Source: Candidatus Rokuibacteriota bacterium (GTDB lineage: Bacteria; Methylomirabilota; Methylomirabilia; Rokubacteriales; CSP1-6). Taken from it: a DNA stretch of 51,329 nt. Numbering within the stretch: the stretch's first letter is position 1; each line of letters begins with the position of its first letter. The notes below the pieces were generated by a model. That model ran no database searches. It was not told where the DNA came from and saw only the letters and a program-made list of their open reading frames with translations. Shown here piece by piece: positions 28,551 to 39,538 of this stretch. Position numbers and translations under genes: made by a program. The stretch is taken from the NCBI GenBank assembly GCA_003221515.1, contig QHSI01000123.1, forward strand, positions 1 to 51,329, written 5' to 3'.

Positions 28551-29267
28551 ATGAAGGGGCAATGTCTTGTGGTAGTCGCGGTCGTGGCGGCGTTCGCGAC
28601 CTCCGGCTGCTCGACCGCGAAACAGATCCTGGGCGTCCAGTCCCCGGGCGATCCCTCCGTCACCATCAAGGCCGCTGAGACTCGGTGGCTGCTGATCAAG
28701 AACCCGCGATTCGGCGAGGTCGCCAGCGAGCCCGAGTACGTGTGGGTCGAAGAGGACAAGATGCCGATCACCCTCACGACCCTCGTGCGCGGCCAGGGCG
28801 CGATCATCGCGACGCCGGAGATCGTCGCCAAGTACGGCGCCCCGCCCGGCGGGGGCAAGATCAGCCCGCGGCAGGGTGTCCCGACCCAGACGACACCGTC
28901 CGCGACCGGGTCGACGGCAGCGGACGCTGAGGCGCCGCCCCGCCGCGCCGCGGCCGCGGTGTCGCCGCCGACGAACGGGAGGGCGCACGAGGGCCCGAAG
29001 CGGGGCCTGGTCGTCTACGTCGACACGCCGCGGATCGTCGTCGACCTGACGGCCGCCGACGGCATGCGCGCCGGCACGCTGGTGAGCGTGCGTCGCGACG
29101 CCATCCCGATCGTCCATCCCGTGACCGGGGAAGTGCTCGGCGAGCTCGACCAGGAGGTCGCGACGGTGCGCCTGACCGAGGTGCGTGAGAAGTTCTCGGT
29201 CGGCGATGTCCAAACCGTGGCGCCCGGCGCGCGGATCCAGATCAAGGATCGCGTCGTCCCGAAGTAG
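28551..29267 (+). CDS. Lipoprotein with C-terminal FlgT-C-like domain
   Basis: 238 residues. Signal peptide with lipobox ending ATSGC (Cys20). Residues 25-110 are of unknown type (TRWLLIKNPRFGEVASEPEY, VWVEEDKMPITL), then a Pro/Thr/Ala-rich linker, and a C-terminal domain with VYVDTPRIVVDL, HPVTGEVLGELDQEVATVRL and VREKFSVGDVQTV, close to the FlgT C-terminal pattern. No Shine-Dalgarno is visible; TATGGT/TATGAC hexamers lie 6-11 nt before the ATG, so a leaderless start is possible. Function unknown. Confidence 0.75.
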   Translation: MKGQCLVVVAVVAAFATSGCSTAKQILGVQSPGDPSVTIKAAETRWLLIKNPRFGEVASEPEYVWVEEDKMPITLTTLVRGQGAIIATPEIVAKYGAPPGGGKISPRQGVPTQTTPSATGSTAADAEAPPRRAAAAVSPPTNGRAHEGPKRGLVVYVDTPRIVVDLTAADGMRAGTLVSVRRDAIPIVHPVTGEVLGELDQEVATVRLTEVREKFSVGDVQTVAPGARIQIKDRVVPK

Positions 29268-31080: not shown

Positions 31081-31396
31081 TGCTGTCGCTCTTCGCAGCC
31101 GGCTTCTCGGCGGGCTTGTCAGCCGGCTTGTCGGCAGGTTTGTCAGCCGGCTTGTCGGCGGGTTTGTCCGCGGTCGTCCCCGACGACTTCTCGGACTGGA
31201 GCGCCTTCTTCCGTGACTCCGACGGATAGTCGGTGACGTACCAGCCCTCACCCTTCAAGATGAACGGCGCCGCGGAGAGGAGACGACGTACTTCGCCGCC
31301 GCACTCGTCACACTTTTTGAGGGCTGGCTCGGAGATGCGCTGACGGATCTCGAACACGCGTTTGCATTTGAGGCACTCGTATTCATAGGTAGGCAT
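31034..31396 (-). CDS. FmdB-type zinc-ribbon protein with ADKP repeat tail
   Basis: About 120 residues. The N-terminal ~50 residues are the FmdB/CxxC regulatory zinc ribbon: PTYEYECLKCKRVFEI and KCDECGGEVRRLL supply the four Cys ligands, followed by FILKGEGWYVTDY. The rest is a low-complexity tail with five ADKP units, AEKP and an Ser/Ala/Pro end. The second of two close ATGs (31396) is chosen because family members begin MPTYEY; 31402 is the alternative. The 3' end overlaps the SAM hydrolase gene by 47 bp. Role unknown; often encoded near translation genes. Confidence 0.88.
   Translation of the reverse strand: MPTYEYECLKCKRVFEIRQRISEPALKKCDECGGEVRRLLSAAPFILKGEGWYVTDYPSESRKKALQSEKSSGTTADKPADKPADKPADKPADKPAEKPAAKSDSTTTASSPAAPAPKSD
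31103..31174 (-). repeat. 12-bp tandem repeat encoding ADKP units
   Basis: Six near-identical 12-bp units (for example CTTGTCAGCCGG and CTTGTCGGCGGG on the plus strand) encode the ADKP repeats of the zinc-ribbon protein. Being a multiple of three, gain or loss of units would keep the frame. Confidence 0.9.
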
Positions 31397-31428
31397 TCTC
31401 ATTCGAAGCTACATGGGGAGGATTGAGG

Positions 31429-32106
31429 GTGTCAAGAAGACACGGAATCGCGTCTGCATTGCTTCTCTCCGCGCTTTCGTTGCTCGGATGCGCGAGCGCG
31501 TCGTCCCAGCAGGCGGCCGAAGTCCAGAAGCTCCAGGCCCGCGAAGCCTACGATCGTGCGCTGAGCCATCTCAACGACAAGCAGCCGGCACCGGCGGTGA
31601 CGGCGCTGATGCAGGCGATCAACGTCAATCCGATGTCCGCGCTCTATCGCGACACGCTCGGCCTCGTCATGCTGGACCTCGGGCAGCCCGATAAGGCGCT
31701 CGAGCGCTTCAAGCAGGCGGTCGAGCTCGATCCCAACTACGCCGACGCCCACTTCCACCTGGGCACGGCCCTCGCCGAGACGCGCCAGTGGGCCGAGGCG
31801 GTCAAGAGCTATCGGCGCGCGCTCGAGCTTCCGACCCTGACGATCCCCGAGTCGGCCAACCAAAATCTGGGTTTGGCCCTGTACCACCTCAAGCGCTACC
31901 AGGAGGCCGAGCAGACGCTGCGATTCGCCATCAAGCTCGATCCCAAGATGCAGCTCGCCTACTACAACCTGGGGCTGGTCCTGGTGGCCGAGGAGCGGCG
32001 GGAGGAAGCCAAGGCGGTCTTCCGTCAGGCCCGCCAGCTCGGGCCGGACTCGCCGGTCGGCCAGGCCGCCCAGGATCGTCTCAAGGCCCTGGGCGAGGGA
32101 AGCTGA
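31429..32106 (+). CDS. TPR lipoprotein, PilF/PilW-like
   Basis: 225 residues. GTG 31429 is chosen because GGGGAGG (31415-31421) lies 7 nt upstream; the earlier TTG at 31423 would sit almost on the Shine-Dalgarno. A lipobox ALSLLGC gives an N-terminal lipid anchor. Four to five TPRs follow (for example DKALERFKQAVELDPNYADA and AEAVKSYRRALELP, EAEQTLRFAIKLDPKMQLAY). This resembles PilF/PilW pilotins and BamD-like TPR lipoproteins, but no pilus genes are in the window. Divergent from the zinc-ribbon gene with 32 bp between starts. Confidence 0.82.
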   Translation: MSRRHGIASALLLSALSLLGCASASSQQAAEVQKLQAREAYDRALSHLNDKQPAPAVTALMQAINVNPMSALYRDTLGLVMLDLGQPDKALERFKQAVELDPNYADAHFHLGTALAETRQWAEAVKSYRRALELPTLTIPESANQNLGLALYHLKRYQEAEQTLRFAIKLDPKMQLAYYNLGLVLVAEERREEAKAVFRQARQLGPDSPVGQAAQDRLKALGEGS

Positions 32107-32119
32107 GCAGTTTTTTGTC

Positions 32120-32149
32120 TTGACCTTCGGCGAGCACGTGCGGTAAAAG
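32120..32149 (+). promoter_or_regulatory. Promoter of barrel gene 1
   Basis: TTGACC (32120-32125), an 18-nt spacer and TAAAAG (32144-32149), preceded by GCAGTTTTTT, a possible UP-type T-tract. The same string GCAGTTTTTT plus TTGACC, 18 nt and TAAA occurs before barrel gene 3 (35884-35913). It leaves a leader of about 100 nt with several GACCCGTAG/GTCCCGTAG repeats before the ATG at 32258. Confidence 0.65.
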
Positions 32150-32257
32150 CGCTCCGTCATACGTTCGTGTCCCGTAGTGGTGTCCCGTTCCGCAGTCGAC
32201 CCGTAGTACTGACCCGTAGCGGATTCGGAAGCAGGACAACATTCGGGAGGATCCTCG

Positions 32258-33943
32258 ATGAAGAGTGTCCGTGTCCCCATTCTCGCCGCACTCCTGATTG
32301 TTGCGTTGACGGCGCCCTCGGCATTCGCGCAGGCGCCGACACCCAAAGTCACGATCAACGGCCTCTTCGACCAGGTGACGGCGATGGGTCGGAACTTCTA
32401 CGACGGCAACTTGGCCCGGGACAACGACCGGGAGTGGTATGCCCGGACCCGGTTCCGCCCCGACTTCACGTTCGAGGTCGGGCGGGTCAAGGCTGTGCTC
32501 GGTCTCGAGATCGACCTGCAGTACGGCCAAGGCGGGCCCAACGACGGCGGCTTCCCGGGCAACAATACCGGGACGGCAGGCGGCGTACTCAACGTCGTCG
32601 GCGGAAACGTTCAAAATTCGAACAGCGGCTGCAAGAACAACTCGAACGGCTGTCTGGACCTCAACACCGACGTCGGCGGCATGATCGAGATCAAGTGGAT
32701 CTACACCGAGTTTCCGCTGACCGGCAAGGACAGCTTGATGCCGTTCATCCCGGTCGACACCATCGCGCGGGCCGGCGGCCAACCATTTGGTTCCCTGGCC
32801 AACTACAAAGTGGTCTATGCAAACGGTGACTTCGCCGGCGTGTCGGCAGTGACGACGTTTGCGCCGAATCTCAAGACCAGCGTTGCCTTCGTCGTGGTCG
32901 AGGACCAGTTGGCGGGTGGCAACCGCGCCGCGGCGAACACGCGGACGAGCCGCGGCGAGGACTACGCGATCATCGTGAGCCCGGAGATCACTCCGTTCAA
33001 GGGGCTCGACATCAAGCCGCTGTACTCGTACTTCCACGCCGACGGCGCGACGTCCGGTACGGCCCGGCACAACGTGATCAATCGCCGCTTCGTCGGAAGC
33101 GGCGCGACCAACTCCGCGGGAGCGCTCGGCGGCGCGCTGGCTGCCGTCTCTACCGCGGGCGACTCGACGAACCAGGAAGAGCGACACACGATCGGCGTCG
33201 ACATGCGCTGGCGCATGGGTCCCTTCGGCTTCGATCCGTCGCTCATGTACCAGTGGGGCACCAGTGACCACCAGGCCCAGAGGACGAACGGCCAGGTTGG
33301 GCGCGTCGAGGCCGACATGAGCTCCTGGATCGTGGACCTGCTCGGATCCTTCACGGCGGGGCCGTTGCTGCTCGAGGCGCGAGGCGTGTACACGCCCGGC
33401 AACAAGGCGCGCGACAACCTCGCCCAGAGCATCCGCTACTATCAGCCGCTCACCATGGACGGGAACTGGTGGGCGGGCTGGGGCGGGATCCTGGGCAGCG
33501 GAATCGATTACTTCAACGGTGCGCTACTGACCAACCAGGCCCGCTTCATCGGGTACGACCGGTACGGCTCCGCGCGAGCCGCCCTCCGGGCCACGTACAA
33601 CATCACGCCAGCGTTCGCCGTGTGGGGCATCGCCAGTCCTTCGTGGACGGCGGAGAAGGTCGACACCGACACGGGCGCCTCGCCGGGTCTGGGGACGAGC
33701 TCGATCAGCCGGACGACGATAGACGAGCAGAGCTGGGTCAAGGGCGACTCCCGCTACATCGGGACCGAGACGGACCTTGGGTTCACGTGGCGGTTCGCGC
33801 CGAACGCGGCGTTCGACCTCGAAGGCTCCTATCTGTTCGCGGGCGCGGCACTGGGAACCGCTGAGATTCTCAATGGCGTGCACACGCGGCGTGACCCGAA
33901 CGATGCCTACCAGTTGGCCGCGCGTGTGCGCTTCGCGTTCTAG
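32258..33943 (+). CDS. Outer-membrane beta-barrel protein, tandem paralogue 1
   Basis: 561 residues with a clear signal peptide (VPILAALLIVALTAPSAFAQ, cleavage near residue 25). Body is rich in alternating hydrophobic/aromatic strands (YARTRFRPDFTFEVGRVKAV, WWAGWGGILGSGIDYFNG) and ends RVRFAF, a C-terminal Phe as recognised by the BAM machinery. It is therefore probably a porin, ligand unknown. Two Cys in SGCKNNSNGC could form a loop disulfide. Shine-Dalgarno GGGAGG is 7 nt before the ATG. The two following genes are paralogues; gene 2 is nearly identical over long DNA stretches. Confidence 0.82.
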   Translation: MKSVRVPILAALLIVALTAPSAFAQAPTPKVTINGLFDQVTAMGRNFYDGNLARDNDREWYARTRFRPDFTFEVGRVKAVLGLEIDLQYGQGGPNDGGFPGNNTGTAGGVLNVVGGNVQNSNSGCKNNSNGCLDLNTDVGGMIEIKWIYTEFPLTGKDSLMPFIPVDTIARAGGQPFGSLANYKVVYANGDFAGVSAVTTFAPNLKTSVAFVVVEDQLAGGNRAAANTRTSRGEDYAIIVSPEITPFKGLDIKPLYSYFHADGATSGTARHNVINRRFVGSGATNSAGALGGALAAVSTAGDSTNQEERHTIGVDMRWRMGPFGFDPSLMYQWGTSDHQAQRTNGQVGRVEADMSSWIVDLLGSFTAGPLLLEARGVYTPGNKARDNLAQSIRYYQPLTMDGNWWAGWGGILGSGIDYFNGALLTNQARFIGYDRYGSARAALRATYNITPAFAVWGIASPSWTAEKVDTDTGASPGLGTSSISRTTIDEQSWVKGDSRYIGTETDLGFTWRFAPNAAFDLEGSYLFAGAALGTAEILNGVHTRRDPNDAYQLAARVRFAF

Positions 33944-33968
33944 GGAGGTGTCCCGGCAGTAGCAGTAG

Positions 33969-33995
33969 ACCGGACCGGTAATCGGCCGGTCCGGT
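33969..33995. promoter_or_regulatory. Perfect 10-bp inverted repeat between barrel genes 1 and 2
   Basis: ACCGGACCGG (33969-33978) and CCGGTCCGGT (33986-33995) pair perfectly around a 7-nt loop, 26 bp after the stop of barrel gene 1. No T-run follows, so it may be an mRNA-stabilising hairpin, an attenuator or a protein-binding site rather than an intrinsic terminator. No TTGACC-type promoter was seen between genes 1 and 2, which suggests shared transcription across this hairpin. Confidence 0.6.
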
Positions 33996-34093
33996 AGTCG
34001 ATCTGTCCCGTAGGCGACCCGTCCCGCTGTCGACCGGTAGTGCGGATCCGACACAGGTTCGCGGACGCAAGACAACATTCGGGAGGATCCTCG

Positions 34094-35788
34094 ATGAAGA
34101 GAGTCTCCTTCCTACTATTCGCCGCGCTGCTCGTCCTCGCGGTCACCGCCCCCTCGGTCTTCGCGCAGGCGCCGGTCCCCAAGGTCACGATCAACGGGCT
34201 CTTCGACCAGGTGACGTCGATGGGCCGGAACTTCTACGACGGCAACTTGACCCGGGACAACGATCGCGAATGGTACGCCCGGACCCGGTTCCGTCCCGAC
34301 TTCACGTTCGAGGTCGGACGGGTCAAGGCCGTGCTCGGCCTCGAGATCGACTTGATGTACGGCCAGGGGGGGCCAAACGACGGCGGCTTCCCGGGCAACA
34401 ACAGCGGGGTCGCGGGCGGCGCCATAAGTGTTGGTGCCGGCAACGCGACCACTGGTTGCAAGAACAACGCGAACGGCTGTCTGGACCTCAATACCGACGT
34501 CGGCGGCATGATCGAGATCAAGTGGATCTACACCGAGTTTCCGCTGACCGGCAAAGACAGCGTGATGCCGTTCATCCCGGTCGAGACCATGGCGCGGGCG
34601 GGAGGCCAACCCTGGGGTTCACTGGCCAACTACAAAGTCGTGTACGCCAATGGCGACTTCGCCGGTCTGTCGACCGTGACGAAGATCTCGCCGAACCTCA
34701 CGGCCAAGCTCGCCTTCGTGGTCGTCGAGGATCAGCTGGCGGGCGGCAACCGCGCCGCGGCGACCACGCGGACGAGCCGCGGCGAGGACTACGCGATCAC
34801 CGTGAGCCCGGAGATCACGCCGTTCAAGGGGCTCGACATCAAGCCGCTGTACTCGTATTTCCACGCCGACGGCCTGACGGCCGGTACGTCTCGGCACTCC
34901 GTGATCAACCGCCGCTTCGTTGGAGGCGGCGGGACCAACTCTGCGTTGGCGAACGGCGGGTGCCAAACCGCGGCAGCCGCCTGTACAGCGGCGGGCAATG
35001 CGGGCGACTCCACGAACCAGGAGGAGCGACACACGATCGGCATCGACATGCGCTGGCGCATGGGTCCCTTCGGCTTCGATCCGTCGGTCATGTACCAGTG
35101 GGGCACCAGTGACCACCAGGCCGTGAGGACGAACGGCCAGGTTGGGCGCGTCGAGGCCGACATGAGCTCCTGGATCGTGGACCTGCTCGGATCCTTCACG
35201 GTGGGTCCGTTCCTGCTCGAGGCGCGAGGCGTGTACACGCCCGGCAACAAGGCGCGCGACAACCTCGCCCGGAGCATCCGCTACTATCAGCCGCTCAGCA
35301 TGGACGGGAATTGGTGGGCGGGCTGGGGCGGGATCCTGGGCAGCGGAGTTGATTACTTCAACGGTTCGCTGCTGACCAACCAGGCCCGCTTCATCGGGTA
35401 CGACCGGTACGGCTCCGCGCGACTCGCCCTCCGGGGCACGTACCACATCACGCCAGCGTTCGCCGTATGGGGCATCGCCAGTCCTTCGTGGACGGCGGAG
35501 AAGGTCGACACCGACACGGGCGCCACGCCGGGTCTGGGGGCGGGCTCGATCAGCCGGACGACGATAGACGACCAGAGCTGGGTCAAGGGCGACTCCCGCT
35601 ACATCGGGACCGAGACGGACCTTGGGATCACGTGGAGGTTCGCGCCGAACGCGGCGTTCGACCTCGAAGGCTCCTATCTGTTCGCAGGTGCGGCACTGGG
35701 AACCGCGGAGCTTGTCAATGGCGTGCACACGCGGCGTGACCCGAACGATGCCTACCAGCTGGCCGCGCGTGTGCGCTTCGCGTTCTAG
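34094..35788 (+). CDS. Outer-membrane beta-barrel protein, tandem paralogue 2
   Basis: 564 residues, same architecture as paralogue 1: signal peptide ending VTAPSVFAQ, barrel strands and terminal RVRFAF. ATG 34094 is preceded by the same upstream block as gene 1 (ACAACATTCGGGAGGATCC, with Shine-Dalgarno), so the duplication included the ribosome site. Besides the SGC/TGCKNNANGC pair it has an extra Cys pair in a loop (GGCQTAAAACTAAG) not found in paralogue 1. Long identical DNA stretches in the second half point to recent duplication or gene conversion. Confidence 0.82.
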   Translation: MKRVSFLLFAALLVLAVTAPSVFAQAPVPKVTINGLFDQVTSMGRNFYDGNLTRDNDREWYARTRFRPDFTFEVGRVKAVLGLEIDLMYGQGGPNDGGFPGNNSGVAGGAISVGAGNATTGCKNNANGCLDLNTDVGGMIEIKWIYTEFPLTGKDSVMPFIPVETMARAGGQPWGSLANYKVVYANGDFAGLSTVTKISPNLTAKLAFVVVEDQLAGGNRAAATTRTSRGEDYAITVSPEITPFKGLDIKPLYSYFHADGLTAGTSRHSVINRRFVGGGGTNSALANGGCQTAAAACTAAGNAGDSTNQEERHTIGIDMRWRMGPFGFDPSVMYQWGTSDHQAVRTNGQVGRVEADMSSWIVDLLGSFTVGPFLLEARGVYTPGNKARDNLARSIRYYQPLSMDGNWWAGWGGILGSGVDYFNGSLLTNQARFIGYDRYGSARLALRGTYHITPAFAVWGIASPSWTAEKVDTDTGATPGLGAGSISRTTIDDQSWVKGDSRYIGTETDLGITWRFAPNAAFDLEGSYLFAGAALGTAELVNGVHTRRDPNDAYQLAARVRFAF

Positions 35789-35883
35789 TTCTACATGTTG
35801 TGGAGCCCACGAGAAGGGCCCCCAAGATGAGAGGGAGGCGCCCCGAGACGATGGGGAAACATGAGCTAAATAGCAGTTTTTTC

Positions 35884-35913
35884 TTGACCCAAAGCTGATC
35901 AGCGGGGTAAATA
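35884..35913 (+). promoter_or_regulatory. Promoter of barrel gene 3
   Basis: TTGACC (35884-35889), 18-nt spacer, TAAATA (35908-35913), preceded by GCAGTTTTTT. Same module as at 32120-32149. It lies in the 265-bp gap after gene 2, in which no other gene is apparent; the rest of the gap is unremarkable leader. Confidence 0.62.
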
Positions 35914-36053
35914 CCGGAAATGCGCGGGGGTCCGTCCCGTCATTCGGGCGGGCCTCTCTGCGCGCGGCTTTCGCAGGAGTTGTTGGTGATGTCGGCGTTG
36001 GGCGTTGGCAACGGGGTGGCAAGTTGCTGCTCACCACTTCTGAGGAGGCGGTA

Positions 36054-37551
36054 ATGAGGAAAGTCCTCACCACTGCAGTTTTCGCCGTCGTCGCCCTCGC
36101 GATGCTGGCTCCGCCTGTGCTCGCACAGGCGCCCGCACCGAAGGTGACGATCACCGGTCTCTTCGACCAAGTCACGACGGCGGGCCGAAACTTCTACGAC
36201 GGCAACTACTCGCGCGACAACGATCGCGAGTGGTATGCCCGGACGCGCTTCCGTCCTGACTTCACGTTCGAAGTCGGACGCACCAAGGCCGTGCTCGGTC
36301 TCGAAATCGACCTGATGTACGGCCAGGGTGGCTCGAACGACGGCGGTTTCCCCGGCAATAGCACCGGCTTCGCCGGTGGCTTCGCCGGCGGTACCAAGGG
36401 GGCCACCAACGGCGCCCTGGACCTCAACACCGACGTCGGCGGCATGATCGAGATCAAGTGGGCCTACACGGAGTTCGACCTGACTTCACGCCGGAGATCA
36501 AGAACCACCTCGCCTTCGTGGTCGTGGAAGACCAGCTTGCGGGCGGTAACCGAGCGCTCGCGAACGTGCGGACCAACCGCGGCGAGGACTACGCGTTCAT
36601 CCTGAGCCCCGAGATCACGCCGATAAAGGGGCTCGACATCAAGCCCGTGGTGTCGTGGTTCCACGCTGACGGCACTACCAGCAGTAACTCTCGCCGCAAC
36701 TCGGTCAACGTCCGCACGGCCGGCACGCAGGTGGCTGGCGGCGCGTTCGTTGGAAGCGGCGGCATGAACAGTGGCACGGCCACGGGCGGCGGCAACGCGG
36801 CCGGCGACGCCACGAACCACGAAGATCGCTACACGATAGGTGTCGATGCGCGCTGGCGCATGGGTCCTTTCGGCCTCGATCCCTCGCTCTTCTATCAGAC
36901 CGGTCCCTACCACACCCAGGCTCAGCGGTCGAACGGCGCGGTCACCCGGGTGAAGGGCGACACGGCTGCGTGGCTGGCCGACATCATCGGCAGCTGGCAG
37001 GCCGGGCCGCTGCTCGTCGAAGCCCGCGGTGTGTACACCACGGGCAACAAGGCGCGCGACAACCTGGCGCTCAGCAAGCGCTACTTCGAGCCGCTCGATC
37101 TGGACACCGGCTACTGGGCCGGGTGGGCCTCGATCCTGGCCCTCGGAATCGACTACTTCAACGGCGGTGGCGGTTCCAACCAGGGCCTCGACAGCAACAT
37201 CGGATACGACCGCTATGGCCGGTTGGGTTTCGGCGTTCGGGTGACGTACAACATCACCCCGGCGTTCGCGGTCTATGGGACGATCAACCCGACGTGGGCG
37301 GCCGAGAAGGTCGACACGGACACCAACTGCGGGACGCTGTCGGTCGCTCAGGCCAACGGCGGTTGCCCGAATCGGCTGACGGTGAACGACAAGAGCTGGG
37401 ACGAGGGTAAGTCTCGCTACATCGGCACTGAGGCGGACCTCGGCGTCACCTGGCGGTTCGCGCCGAACGCGGCTCTCGATCTGCTGGGAGCTTATCTCTC
37501 CGCAGGCCACGCACTAGACACCGCCGAACTCCTGAACGGCTGTCCTTCTAA
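36054..37551 (+). pseudogene. Outer-membrane beta-barrel protein, tandem paralogue 3, disrupted
   Basis: Starts well (Shine-Dalgarno GAGGAGG 36042-36048, signal peptide VALAMLAPPVLAQ) and follows paralogues 1 and 2 to ...WAYTEFDLT. At about 36481-36485 roughly 130 nt of the paralogue sequence (some 44 codons) is missing and the frame shifts; the homologous protein resumes in another frame as FTPEIKNHLAFVVVEDQLAG. Near 37540 a second loss removes the last ~20 residues and shifts again: the third frame gives RLSF and a stop at 37549, mirroring the RFAF ending of the paralogues. Both breaks could be real decay or assembly error across near-identical repeats. Confidence 0.78.
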
Positions 37552-37574
37552 GTCGTCGCAGTACGGTGGTCAGC

Positions 37575-37612
37575 AACGGGGCATGGGGTCGTTCGCCCAT
37601 GCCCCGTTTCAT
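37575..37612 (+). terminator. Strong intrinsic terminator after the barrel array
   Basis: AACGGGGCATGGG (37575-37587) pairs perfectly with CCCATGCCCCGTT (37596-37608) around an 8-nt loop, followed by TTCATTT. It ends the barrel array just before the next promoter. Confidence 0.8.
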
Positions 37613-37623
37613 TTCCCCTTTCC

Positions 37624-37652
37624 TTGACTCTCCTGGTGCCGTGGGCTAGCCT
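37624..37652 (+). promoter_or_regulatory. Candidate promoter for the FG-GAP protein
   Basis: TTGACT (37624-37629) and TAGCCT (37647-37652) with a 17-nt spacer, starting 12 bp after the terminator and 27 bp before the GTG start at 37679. Confidence 0.45.
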
Positions 37653-37678
37653 CGGTCCATGTTGGCGGTAGTTTCCAC

Positions 37679-39538
37679 GTGAACTCCCTTGCCGCCCGGG
37701 CGGCGCTGCTCGCTCTCCTGATCGGGATGACGAGCGCCGCGACGGCGCTGGCGCAGACTCAGACGCAGCCCACCTTGAGTGTGCTCGTCGATCAGGTCCT
37801 CGCACTCTTTCCGAAGGTCGACGGCGACGTGATCGAGGTACAAGGGTCCACCGTGACGGTCGGGATCGGCCGCAAGGATGGCCTGGTGGCCGGAGTCGAG
37901 CTGGCCCTTTATCGGGAAGGACGAGAGCTTCGTCATCCGAAGACCGGCGAGGTCCTCGGCAAAACCGAGCAAGCCGTCGGCCGCATGGTGGTTCAGCAGG
38001 TGCTCGAGGCTTACGCGACGGGTACCATGAGCCAGCCCGGCGACGTCCAGGCTGGAGACAGGGCGCGCGTCTCTGCGGGCAAGGTCAAGCTGAGCGTCTT
38101 GCCCATCAGCGAAGGTCCCGGCGTGAAGGGCGGGCTGGTCGAAGCGGCAATCCACGAACTGGTCGAGGCGCTCAACCGGACCGGTCGCTTCCAGGTCGGG
38201 ATGGGCGACGCCATCGGCGTCTGGCTGACGCAGCAGGGCATCAAGCGCGACGACGTGCTCGCGGGCAAGGGGCTGGCTCAGGCCGCCGAGCGCTTCAAGC
38301 TCGAACAGCTCCTGATCGTCGCCTTCACCCGCGTGCAGAACAAGCCGTACATGGACGTCCGGCTCTTCGCGCTGCCCGCGGTCAATCCGCTCCTGACGAC
38401 GGCGCTCTTCGTGCCGCCCGCCATCAAGGCGGCGCCCAAGGGCGACTTCTCGGCGGGCCGCCCGCGCGAGAGCCAGGCCCCGAACCCGCAGCGATCGTTC
38501 CTCGCCCGACTCTTGTTCGGGGATCTCGACGCGGGGACGTACTCGAGCGGTGAGGCGGCGATCCCGTTGAAGGAGGTTGCGAAGTTCCCGTTCATCGTGA
38601 CGTCCATGGACGTCGCGGTCGGGGCGAAAGACCGCATTCCGCGGATGGTCATCACCGATGGCGAGCGCATCTTCCTCTACCGGATCTCGTCCGAGCGCGT
38701 CCTGGAGCCGGAGTGGACGTACAAGGGTGACTCGCGCGGGCACATCTTCAGCGTGCAGCTCGCGGAGCTGGCCGAGGAAGGTGCGATCCACGTCGTCGCC
38801 AACCGCTACAACCCCATTCCGGCGATCTTGCTGAACTCCTTCATCCTGGCGTCGAGGGACCAGAAGCCGGTCGTGGTCGTCGAGGACGTGTCGGACATCC
38901 TGCTGGCCGTGGACGCGAACGGTGACGGCGTCAAGAAGACGCTGTGGATGCAAGCGTTCGAGCAGAAGGGATTCTTCAAGCAAGGGGACGCTCAGCGCGG
39001 GGTGATCCGGAACGGCCGCCTGGTGGCCGAACAGCGCGTGCGAGTTCCGAGCGCCTTCCGAGCCACCGGCGCGACCGCCACCAACATCACCGGCAAGGGG
39101 CCGCGCGCCCTGGCCTTCGTGGACGAGCACAGCCGGCTGCGGATCTCGATCGATACCCAAGAAGTGTTCCGGTCCGCGACGCAGGTCGGCGGCAGCCTGA
39201 CGAAGCTGGTGGTGCAGACGCAGGTCGAGCGCGGCGGACGCGACTACATCTACCAGACGGAGCCGATCCCGCTATCGATCGACCTCGACGGCGACGGCAT
39301 CGACGAGATCGTGGTGCCGCAGAACCAGTTCCCCGGACGGCTGGCCGTGATCTACAAGGGCCCTGCCGGCTACCGGTTCCAAACCGTCAACTCCGGTTTC
39401 GAGGGCATGGTGATCGCGCTGGGCGCCATCCCCGGTGACTCCGGCACCCCGTCGCTCGTCGCGGCAGTCGTCCGCTCCACCGGCGCCATCTTCAGCAGCC
39501 AGGGCGAGACGCAGATCATCATGACGCTCGTGGAGTGA
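37679..39538 (+). CDS. Exported FlgT-C-like and FG-GAP/VCBS protein
   Basis: 619 residues, GTG start, signal peptide to about residue 30 (ALLALLIGMTSAATALAQ). Residues about 45-130 are FlgT-C-like (VIEVQGSTVTVGIGRKDGLV, YREGRELRHPKTGEVLGKTE), then a TolB/CsgG-like region (VKLSVLPISEG ... TGRFQVGMGD, LEQLLIVAFTRVQNKPYMDV). The C-terminal ~320 residues look like a beta-propeller with calcium-type loops VDANGDGVKK and DLDGDGIDEIVVPQN. The first two domains match the order in the protein at 27696-28511. Probably periplasmic or surface exposed; function unknown. Confidence 0.75.
   Translation: MNSLAARAALLALLIGMTSAATALAQTQTQPTLSVLVDQVLALFPKVDGDVIEVQGSTVTVGIGRKDGLVAGVELALYREGRELRHPKTGEVLGKTEQAVGRMVVQQVLEAYATGTMSQPGDVQAGDRARVSAGKVKLSVLPISEGPGVKGGLVEAAIHELVEALNRTGRFQVGMGDAIGVWLTQQGIKRDDVLAGKGLAQAAERFKLEQLLIVAFTRVQNKPYMDVRLFALPAVNPLLTTALFVPPAIKAAPKGDFSAGRPRESQAPNPQRSFLARLLFGDLDAGTYSSGEAAIPLKEVAKFPFIVTSMDVAVGAKDRIPRMVITDGERIFLYRISSERVLEPEWTYKGDSRGHIFSVQLAELAEEGAIHVVANRYNPIPAILLNSFILASRDQKPVVVVEDVSDILLAVDANGDGVKKTLWMQAFEQKGFFKQGDAQRGVIRNGRLVAEQRVRVPSAFRATGATATNITGKGPRALAFVDEHSRLRISIDTQEVFRSATQVGGSLTKLVVQTQVERGGRDYIYQTEPIPLSIDLDGDGIDEIVVPQNQFPGRLAVIYKGPAGYRFQTVNSGFEGMVIALGAIPGDSGTPSLVAAVVRSTGAIFSSQGETQIIMTLVE

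Follow-up and report, generated by a model that had tools for sequence, protein, structure and literature searches.

In this study we analyzed a window of 51,329 nucleotides, contig C125 (QHSI01000123.1) of the 5.1-Mb, 191-contig draft genome of a Candidatus Rokuibacteriota bacterium (GCA_003221515.1), which contains a tandem array of three porin-like genes at positions 32258-37551. We consider it likely that this array is a local form of a porin locus conserved in the family, which in the genus of the source organism consists of a pair of type A and type B genes and which here carries the type A gene twice (genes 1 and 2) next to a type B gene that is probably a pseudogene (gene 3). On this reading the barrels are most likely diffusion porins, and gene conversion takes place within the array. 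An earlier sequence-only reading had described three tandem barrel paralogues under repeated promoters. The tandem arrangement and the relationship of the three barrel genes are borne out by our analysis, but the third gene is not intact. As gene 3 is broken as assembled, the description of three paralogues is wrong as far as function is concerned.

A profile built from 28 sequences detected the porin at E <= 1e-10 in 43 of the 57 family genomes. Of 38 further genomes of the class that were examined, none was detected in this way; one of them, G036, was weakly matched (E 6e-4) when gene 2 by itself served as query. The named close relatives, as matched to gene 2, were Candidatus Rokuibacteriota metagenome-assembled genomes (MAGs) at 17 of 18 loci and a Candidatus Methylomirabilota MAG at one. 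In the loci read, the recurrent order is a TPR gene, the porin, a FlgT_C-like gene and often then hisS; a TPR gene lies within 420 nt upstream of 36 of the 72 tested porin copies. Outside the genus a single porin separates the TPR gene from the downstream gene on one contig in G009, G010, G012, G013, G015, G017, G018 and G022, with the TPR gene about 2 kb off in G015 and about 1 kb off in G022. Two copies occur there at the locus of G019, and G070 also has two adjacent copies. Inside the genus exactly two porins are present on one contig in G002, G005 and G007, and at least two, cut by contig ends, in G001, G003, G006 and G008; G004 is unresolved. Three porins at the locus were found in the source window alone among the genus members.

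The whole-protein tree resolved an A and a B group (support 97/95 and 100/99), each with several genus members. Genes 1 and 2 form a sister pair on the A side (100/99); the sister of gene 3 is the B copy of G002, G002B (100/99). When the two halves of the protein were analyzed separately, genes 1 and 2 again grouped together (93/88 for the N-terminal and 100/99 for the C-terminal half) and gene 3 stayed with G002B. We propose that the locus started with one porin gene, flanked by the TPR gene and the FlgT_C-like gene, which would have become a tandem A-B pair in the genus, and that in the source lineage A would then have been present twice, whereas B acquired two deletions and probably lost its function.

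Additional porin copies are dispersed in the genomes of genus relatives (L040 in G002:C141, L046, L049, L055, L053 and L075), some of which carry the same promoter or leader type. Two of them are defective: an internal stop interrupts G007:C97 (L053), and only a fragment is present in G002:C44 (L075). These extra and defective copies point to repeated birth and loss of porin genes. At locus L050 (G006:C63) a type-B porin precedes the downstream gene and hisS, and no TPR-gene or porin match was found in the 5.7 kb read upstream. Contig C67 of the same genome holds the start of a TPR-A-B arrangement, which together with the C63 copy indicates a rearrangement or a misassembly.

Evidence for exchange between copies comes from genes 1 and 2. 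They were previously noted to be nearly identical over long stretches and to share their upstream block, and both observations hold. The proteins are 87% identical, and the DNA identity per 60-bp window is 92-100% from about position 33164 (gene 1) and 35009 (gene 2) to the stop codon, compared with 71-97% before. Upstream, an identical stretch of 31 nt, recognized by eye, spans both start codons (32235-32265 and 34071-34101), and two windows over 32167-32281 are 76% and 81% identical in aligned columns. The synonymous divergence (dS) between the genes is 0.450 in codons 1-312 and 0.056 in codons 313-564, with 78 of 231 and 10 of 185 synonymous sites differing, respectively (Fisher P = 1.6e-13). 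The boundary at codon 312/313 was picked after viewing the identity profile; a run-length permutation that needs no boundary gave P = 0.0005, and P = 0.027 for the longest run. As in omp2-like systems, synonymous identity between the neighbouring paralogues is thus raised within a delimited tract, and genes 1 and 2 carry the footprint of gene conversion. The ratio of nonsynonymous to synonymous divergence (dN/dS) is 0.67 in the converted tract and 0.23 before it (P = 0.03), a contrast to which we attach little weight because it is one of several comparisons.

It is extremely improbable that genes 1 and 2 are one gene that was duplicated by the assembler. The close match of their last 780 bp or so would fit such an error, but dS reaches 0.45 across the first 312 codons, 12-13% of the residues differ, and both the 5' and the 3' flanks of the two genes are different. 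Moreover, two-copy arrays occupy the same place in the separately assembled genomes G002, G005 and G007. The case that would have undone the array, a single gene with an assembly-made copy, is therefore judged unlikely.

To compare copies across genomes, we scanned 21 sequences in 180-bp windows and scored a window when the two copies of one genome resembled each other more closely than either resembled a copy from another genome of the set. Genes 1 and 2 were mutually closest in 14 of 21 windows. Seven A-B pairs of relatives were covered. More than one such window was found for G007 (starting at residues 199, 258, 280 and 291) and G001 (317 and 346), a single one for G008 (199), and none for the pairs of G002, G003, G005 and G006, the last of which uses the C63 copy. 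No mutual window joined gene 3 to gene 1 or gene 2, although in each of these pairs the deletion left one window without a score. The suggestion that arrays of this kind support recombination is thus supported by the tract in genes 1 and 2 and by the windows in G007 and G001. Gene conversion inside the array may keep the copies alike and sometimes reassort them, alongside gain and loss of copies.

Surface variation, which the sequence-only reading had also put forward, is weakly supported. Across the 28 sequences the extracellular loops vary more than the strands (mean entropy 1.59 vs 1.13, P = 7e-10), but the differences between genes 1 and 2 show no significant bias towards loops (37 of 251 loop vs 23 of 252 strand positions, P = 0.055). 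A stronger version would regard the array as a device for surface variation of the msp2 or tprK type, in which genes 1 and 2 would receive loop sequence from gene 3 as a silent cassette. Conversion between copies, the variable loops of the family and the defective copies elsewhere (G007:C97 and G002:C44) are in line with it. We nevertheless hold it to be very unlikely, since no window derived from gene 3 was seen in genes 1 or 2 of this one genome, the tract common to these genes increases their likeness, and gene 3 retains its own promoter and leader; a single genome, besides, shows no population variation. For a soil bacterium without a known host immune evasion is also an unlikely driver.

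The promoters argue for a conserved organization of the locus. The module GCAGTTTTTT-TTGACC-N18-TAAA, which genes 1 and 3 had been said to share, matches twice in the window, before exactly these two genes, and not once in 100 shuffles. The core T6-TTGACC-N17-19-TAAA occurs only at these two places in the 5.1-Mb assembly. A relaxed pattern, TTGACN-N16-18-TAnA, is present upstream of all 36 porins that follow a TPR gene within 420 nt and of 7 of 36 other porins (including gene 3 and G002B), compared with 55 of 5730 background windows (about 1%); the background consisted of 250-nt windows in which the porin promoters themselves were included, and upstream stretches below 150 nt were dropped. Judged by its sequence conservation, the promoter module is genuine. 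The gene 3-type promoter also precedes G002B, but a search upstream of the B copies in G001, G003, G005, G006, G007 and G008 did not reveal it. The idea of repeated promoters applies to genes 1 and 3 but not to gene 2, upstream of which the relaxed pattern is missing; gene 2 is probably read from the promoter of gene 1. Transcription would begin at the conserved promoter just after the TPR gene, pass through genes 1 and 2, restart at the promoter of gene 3 and stop at the strong hairpin after gene 3 (Table 1). A similar stem lies 3' of the B copy in five of five aligned relatives, as judged by eye. The inverted repeat between genes 1 and 2 may form a hairpin that serves mRNA processing or stability; the folding stability of the entire spacer is not unusual (z -1.4).

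Table 1. Features of the porin array and its borders in the window (SD, Shine-Dalgarno sequence; ORF, open reading frame).
Feature	Position	Strand	Basis
TPR-repeat gene, conserved 5' neighbour of the array	31423-32106	+	Pfam TPR families; syntenic loci in relatives
Gene 1 promoter: TTGACC 32120-32125, 18-nt spacer, TAAAAG 32144-32149, T6 at 32111	32120-32149	+	pattern, conservation
Gene 1 leader: repeated CCCGTAG motifs and 23-nt SD-bearing block common to gene 2	32171-32257	+	
Gene 1, intact outer-membrane porin of 561 amino acids, type A	32258-33943	+	ORF, Pfam, tree; fold inferred from gene 2 model
Gene-conversion tract in gene 1 (partner in gene 2: 35009-35788)	33164-33943	+	dS contrast, run test
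Perfect 10-bp inverted repeat between genes 1 and 2, 7 nt between arms	33969-33995	.	no T run after
Gene 2, intact porin of 564 amino acids, type A, no own promoter found	34094-35788	+	ORF, tree, AlphaFold model
Gene 3 promoter: TTGACC 35884-35889, 18-nt spacer, TAAATA 35908-35913, T6 at 35877	35884-35913	+	
Gene 3 porin leader: UGUUGGUGA 35981-35989, UCACC 36031-36035, SD GAGGAGG 36042-36048, AUG 36054	35974-36056	+	model R1
Gene 3 5' piece, type B, frame kept up to 36484 and shifted after it, stop 36603-36605, 183 amino acids	36054-36605	+	
Gene 3 3' piece, other frame, 136 bp missing before it, C-terminal strand lost through the second deletion near 37537	36485-37540	+	
13-bp perfect stem-loop after the array, probable transcription terminator	37575-37608	+	-27.7 kcal/mol, z -4.9
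Conserved 3' neighbour, 619 amino acids	37679-39538	+	weak FlgT_C match below its cut-off; synteny

Gene 3 is interrupted by two deletions, which were located by alignment with five type-B relatives; the row of G006 in this alignment is the copy on C63 and not the array copy. The first deletion, at the frame break 36484/36485, comprises 136 bp relative to four of the five relatives and 139 bp relative to G007B. The second, near 37537, comprises 55 bp relative to four of them and 91 bp relative to G002B. In both cases the flanking sequence is intact, and relatives have intact genes of type B. The TAA at 37549-37551, which had been taken as the end of the array, is out of frame with both the start of gene 3 and the long 3' piece. 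With only 183 amino acids the product of gene 3 would be too short for a barrel. Gene 3 is probably a pseudogene, with deletions that would be of biological origin.

Several observations weigh against this overall interpretation. The history of the A and B types is blurred: the B-position copies of G001 and G008 and both copies of G004 fall on the A side, which means that exchange or replacement has occurred. In the half trees A and B are not both resolved as single groups, and the tree of the N-terminal half joins G007A and G007B to each other. A strict sigma-70 consensus and a generic terminator scan found nothing in the region, so that the promoter and terminator calls rest on conservation instead. 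Finally, the dN/dS of gene 3 against G002B (0.30 for the 5' and 0.41 for the 3' piece) is near that of five other pairs (0.19-0.35), a value that would be expected of an assembly error or of a loss in the very recent past just as much as of decay. If the loss is biological, it must be recent.

Gene 3 might accordingly be intact in the organism, with both deletions being local errors of the metagenome assembly and with three working porins in the true array. Apart from the dN/dS of the remaining sequence, which resembles that of intact genes, the 191 contigs of the draft are compatible with such errors. Furthermore, contigs end inside porin copies in five of eight other genus genomes (G001, G003, G004, G006 and G008), as is expected where repeats confuse assembly. 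However, two separate errors would be needed, and both deletions are clean-edged and without an N run. Genes 1 and 2, which are more similar neighbours, are free of such defects, and gene 3 as the most divergent of the three is the least prone to be confused with the others. We regard assembly errors as somewhat unlikely and prefer a type-B pseudogene. In curating the genome, gene 3 should be listed as a functional porin only if reads support it.

The AlphaFold model of gene 2 (mean predicted local distance difference test score 76.6) shows 18 main strands as counted from DSSP, short extra strands excluded, in agreement with an 18-strand barrel of the AlgE/OprD/MOMP type. Its best structural matches are AlgE (Z 26.1 over 351 residues, root-mean-square deviation 3.3) and OccK and MOMP (Z 24). 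Genes 1 and 2 begin with signal-like sequences and pass the curated cut-off of the Pfam family Alginate_exp (PF13372; 33.2 and 29.8 bits, cut-off 25.2). In gene 3 the 3' piece scores below it (21.8 bits), and nothing was matched by the 5' piece. At E <= 1 the family is matched by 18 of the 28 members of the alignment. The homotrimeric porin family DESULF_POR1 (NCBIfam NF033939) is matched by 22 of the 28 members, at best with 1.3e-15, and genes 1 and 2 do not reach its cut-off of 250 bits (30.7 and 30.6 bits). Six charged residues, R63, R65, R67, K78, E84 and D86, are invariant in the 28-member alignment and alternate with mostly hydrophobic residues along strands 2 and 3. To go by the alternation rather than by coordinates, this is expected of a pore wall. 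Genes 1 and 2 are thus predicted to encode 18-strand outer-membrane barrels of the AlgE/OprD/MOMP fold, the products of which most likely act as diffusion porins for small solutes. There is no alginate gene among the eight neighbours tested with Pfam, which speaks against a function as alginate exporter. A search of Protein Data Bank chains with the family profile returned one row, glucokinase regulatory protein at E 1.2, which was judged a chance match, as were the Pfam 'Amanitin' rows (E 0.01-0.04), which lie far below the cut-off.

Gene 3 is preceded by a leader that is common in the family without being universal. The gene 3 leader matched model R1 with E 2.0e-16, being itself in the training set; the next best match in the genome reached 0.008 among the best 150 of 3280 candidates that were scored. 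By a string filter, leaders of this type are found in 34 of 76 porin upstream stretches, a few of which are cut by contig ends; the C63 porin copy of G006 also has one, beyond the 34. Of the 36 copies adjacent to a TPR gene, 21 are among the 34, and the eight genus A copies and seven others are not. The model of 34 rows gave 36 matches with E < 1e-6 in the 57 family genomes, all of which end at porin starts. Thirty-four of these are the training rows, which match by construction, and the two others are also porin leaders. With the stricter filters of this search, full-length leaders were seen only before porins among the best 79 of at least 1000 first-look candidates scored per genome. In the own genome the 13-nt core TTGGTGATGTCGG is found a single time, before gene 3. 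Nine genus genomes contain it 23 times, 11 times in porin leaders and 12 times away from porins; none of the 12 is among the leader-model matches listed, and the backward control gave 1.

Whether the leader folds was addressed in several ways. Rfam returned only two sub-threshold chance matches and no leader match for 31900-37800, and RNAalifold found no consensus structure in the MAFFT alignment of the 34 leaders. In an arm-pairing test own arms reached -9.74 kcal/mol and swapped arms -9.31 kcal/mol (standard deviation 0.24), with 15 of 500 permutations as good, and 6 of the 34 rows were in the best 5% of their own shuffles. The two leader arms, UGUUGGUGA and UCACC, can pair; this result is suggestive only, since relatedness was not controlled, and covariation does not establish pairing. 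Many rows contain an AUG inside the leader. As the lengths of the genus rows (83-89 nt) differ by non-multiples of three, we claim no conserved upstream peptide. Genes 1 and 2 as well as G002A and G002x have a different leader with CCCGTAG-like repeats, the likeness of the latter two being judged by eye. CCCGTAG is found 10 times in the window (3.9 expected; one of 100 shuffles had as many), and all four plus-strand occurrences lie in the leaders of genes 1 and 2 (32171-32219 and 34007-34013). The leader of gene 3 could represent a cis-acting RNA element not described so far, which would serve a single porin family in a large part of the Rokubacterial family and from which the type-A copies of the genus would have escaped by swapping in another leader. 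We consider this proposal unlikely to hold. If it does, arm pairing or the binding of a partner might set porin translation.

Beyond the array, the eight neighbours tested with Pfam comprise TPR, zinc-ribbon, SAM hydroxide adenosyltransferase, polyprenyl synthetase, two FlgT_C-like, HisRS and class II (D, K, N) tRNA synthetase genes. The FlgT_C-like genes flank the locus on both sides, at 28551-29267 (above the Pfam cut-off) and 37679-39538 (below it), and both are found again at the corresponding place of related genomes. The zinc-ribbon gene, on the reverse strand, contains 12-bp tandem repeats in its tail (31096-31171) that encode a repeated ADKP motif.

The Brucella porins Omp2a and Omp2b belong to another porin family than those of the Rokubacterial array. 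The genes omp2a and omp2b are described as two closely linked porin paralogues, 82-100% identical, that are homogenised and diversified by gene conversion and have deletions in surface-loop segments (PMC7050475). The array resembles this system in its linked, convertible porin paralogues. However, the Brucella copies are oriented in opposite directions (PMC7050475), whereas the Rokubacterial copies are arranged head-to-tail, with one copy broken as assembled and a promoter pattern found family-wide. The major porin DVU0799 of Desulfovibrio vulgaris was measured as a general porin and modelled with 18 strands (PMC5686591). It has distant sequence similarity and a predicted 18-strand barrel in common with the array genes, for which a general porin is plausible too, although genes 1 and 2 remain far below the DESULF_POR1 cut-off. 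The predicted fold also resembles Pseudomonas AlgE, OprD/Occ and Campylobacter MOMP (Z about 20-26 over 299-379 residues; Alginate_exp above its cut-off), but the identity is only about 7-14% and the tested neighbours lack alginate genes. Among titles and the beginnings of abstracts on Rokubacteria porins, outer membrane proteins, gene conversion and tandem promoters we found nothing on this locus, and the word porin is absent from the parts seen of three papers on Rokubacteria (PMC5712423, PMC5103831 and PMC6784897). What is new is the lineage, the locus, the promoter and the leader; most parts of the arrangement have counterparts in other bacteria.

Taken as a whole, the locus provides an uncultured soil lineage with a candidate for its main outer-membrane pore, for which a promoter that is conserved, a leader that is widespread and a probable terminator are described. 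The leader is a candidate regulatory element that can be tested. Moreover, the array clearly illustrates how porin copies are gained, converted and probably lost in a soil bacterium.

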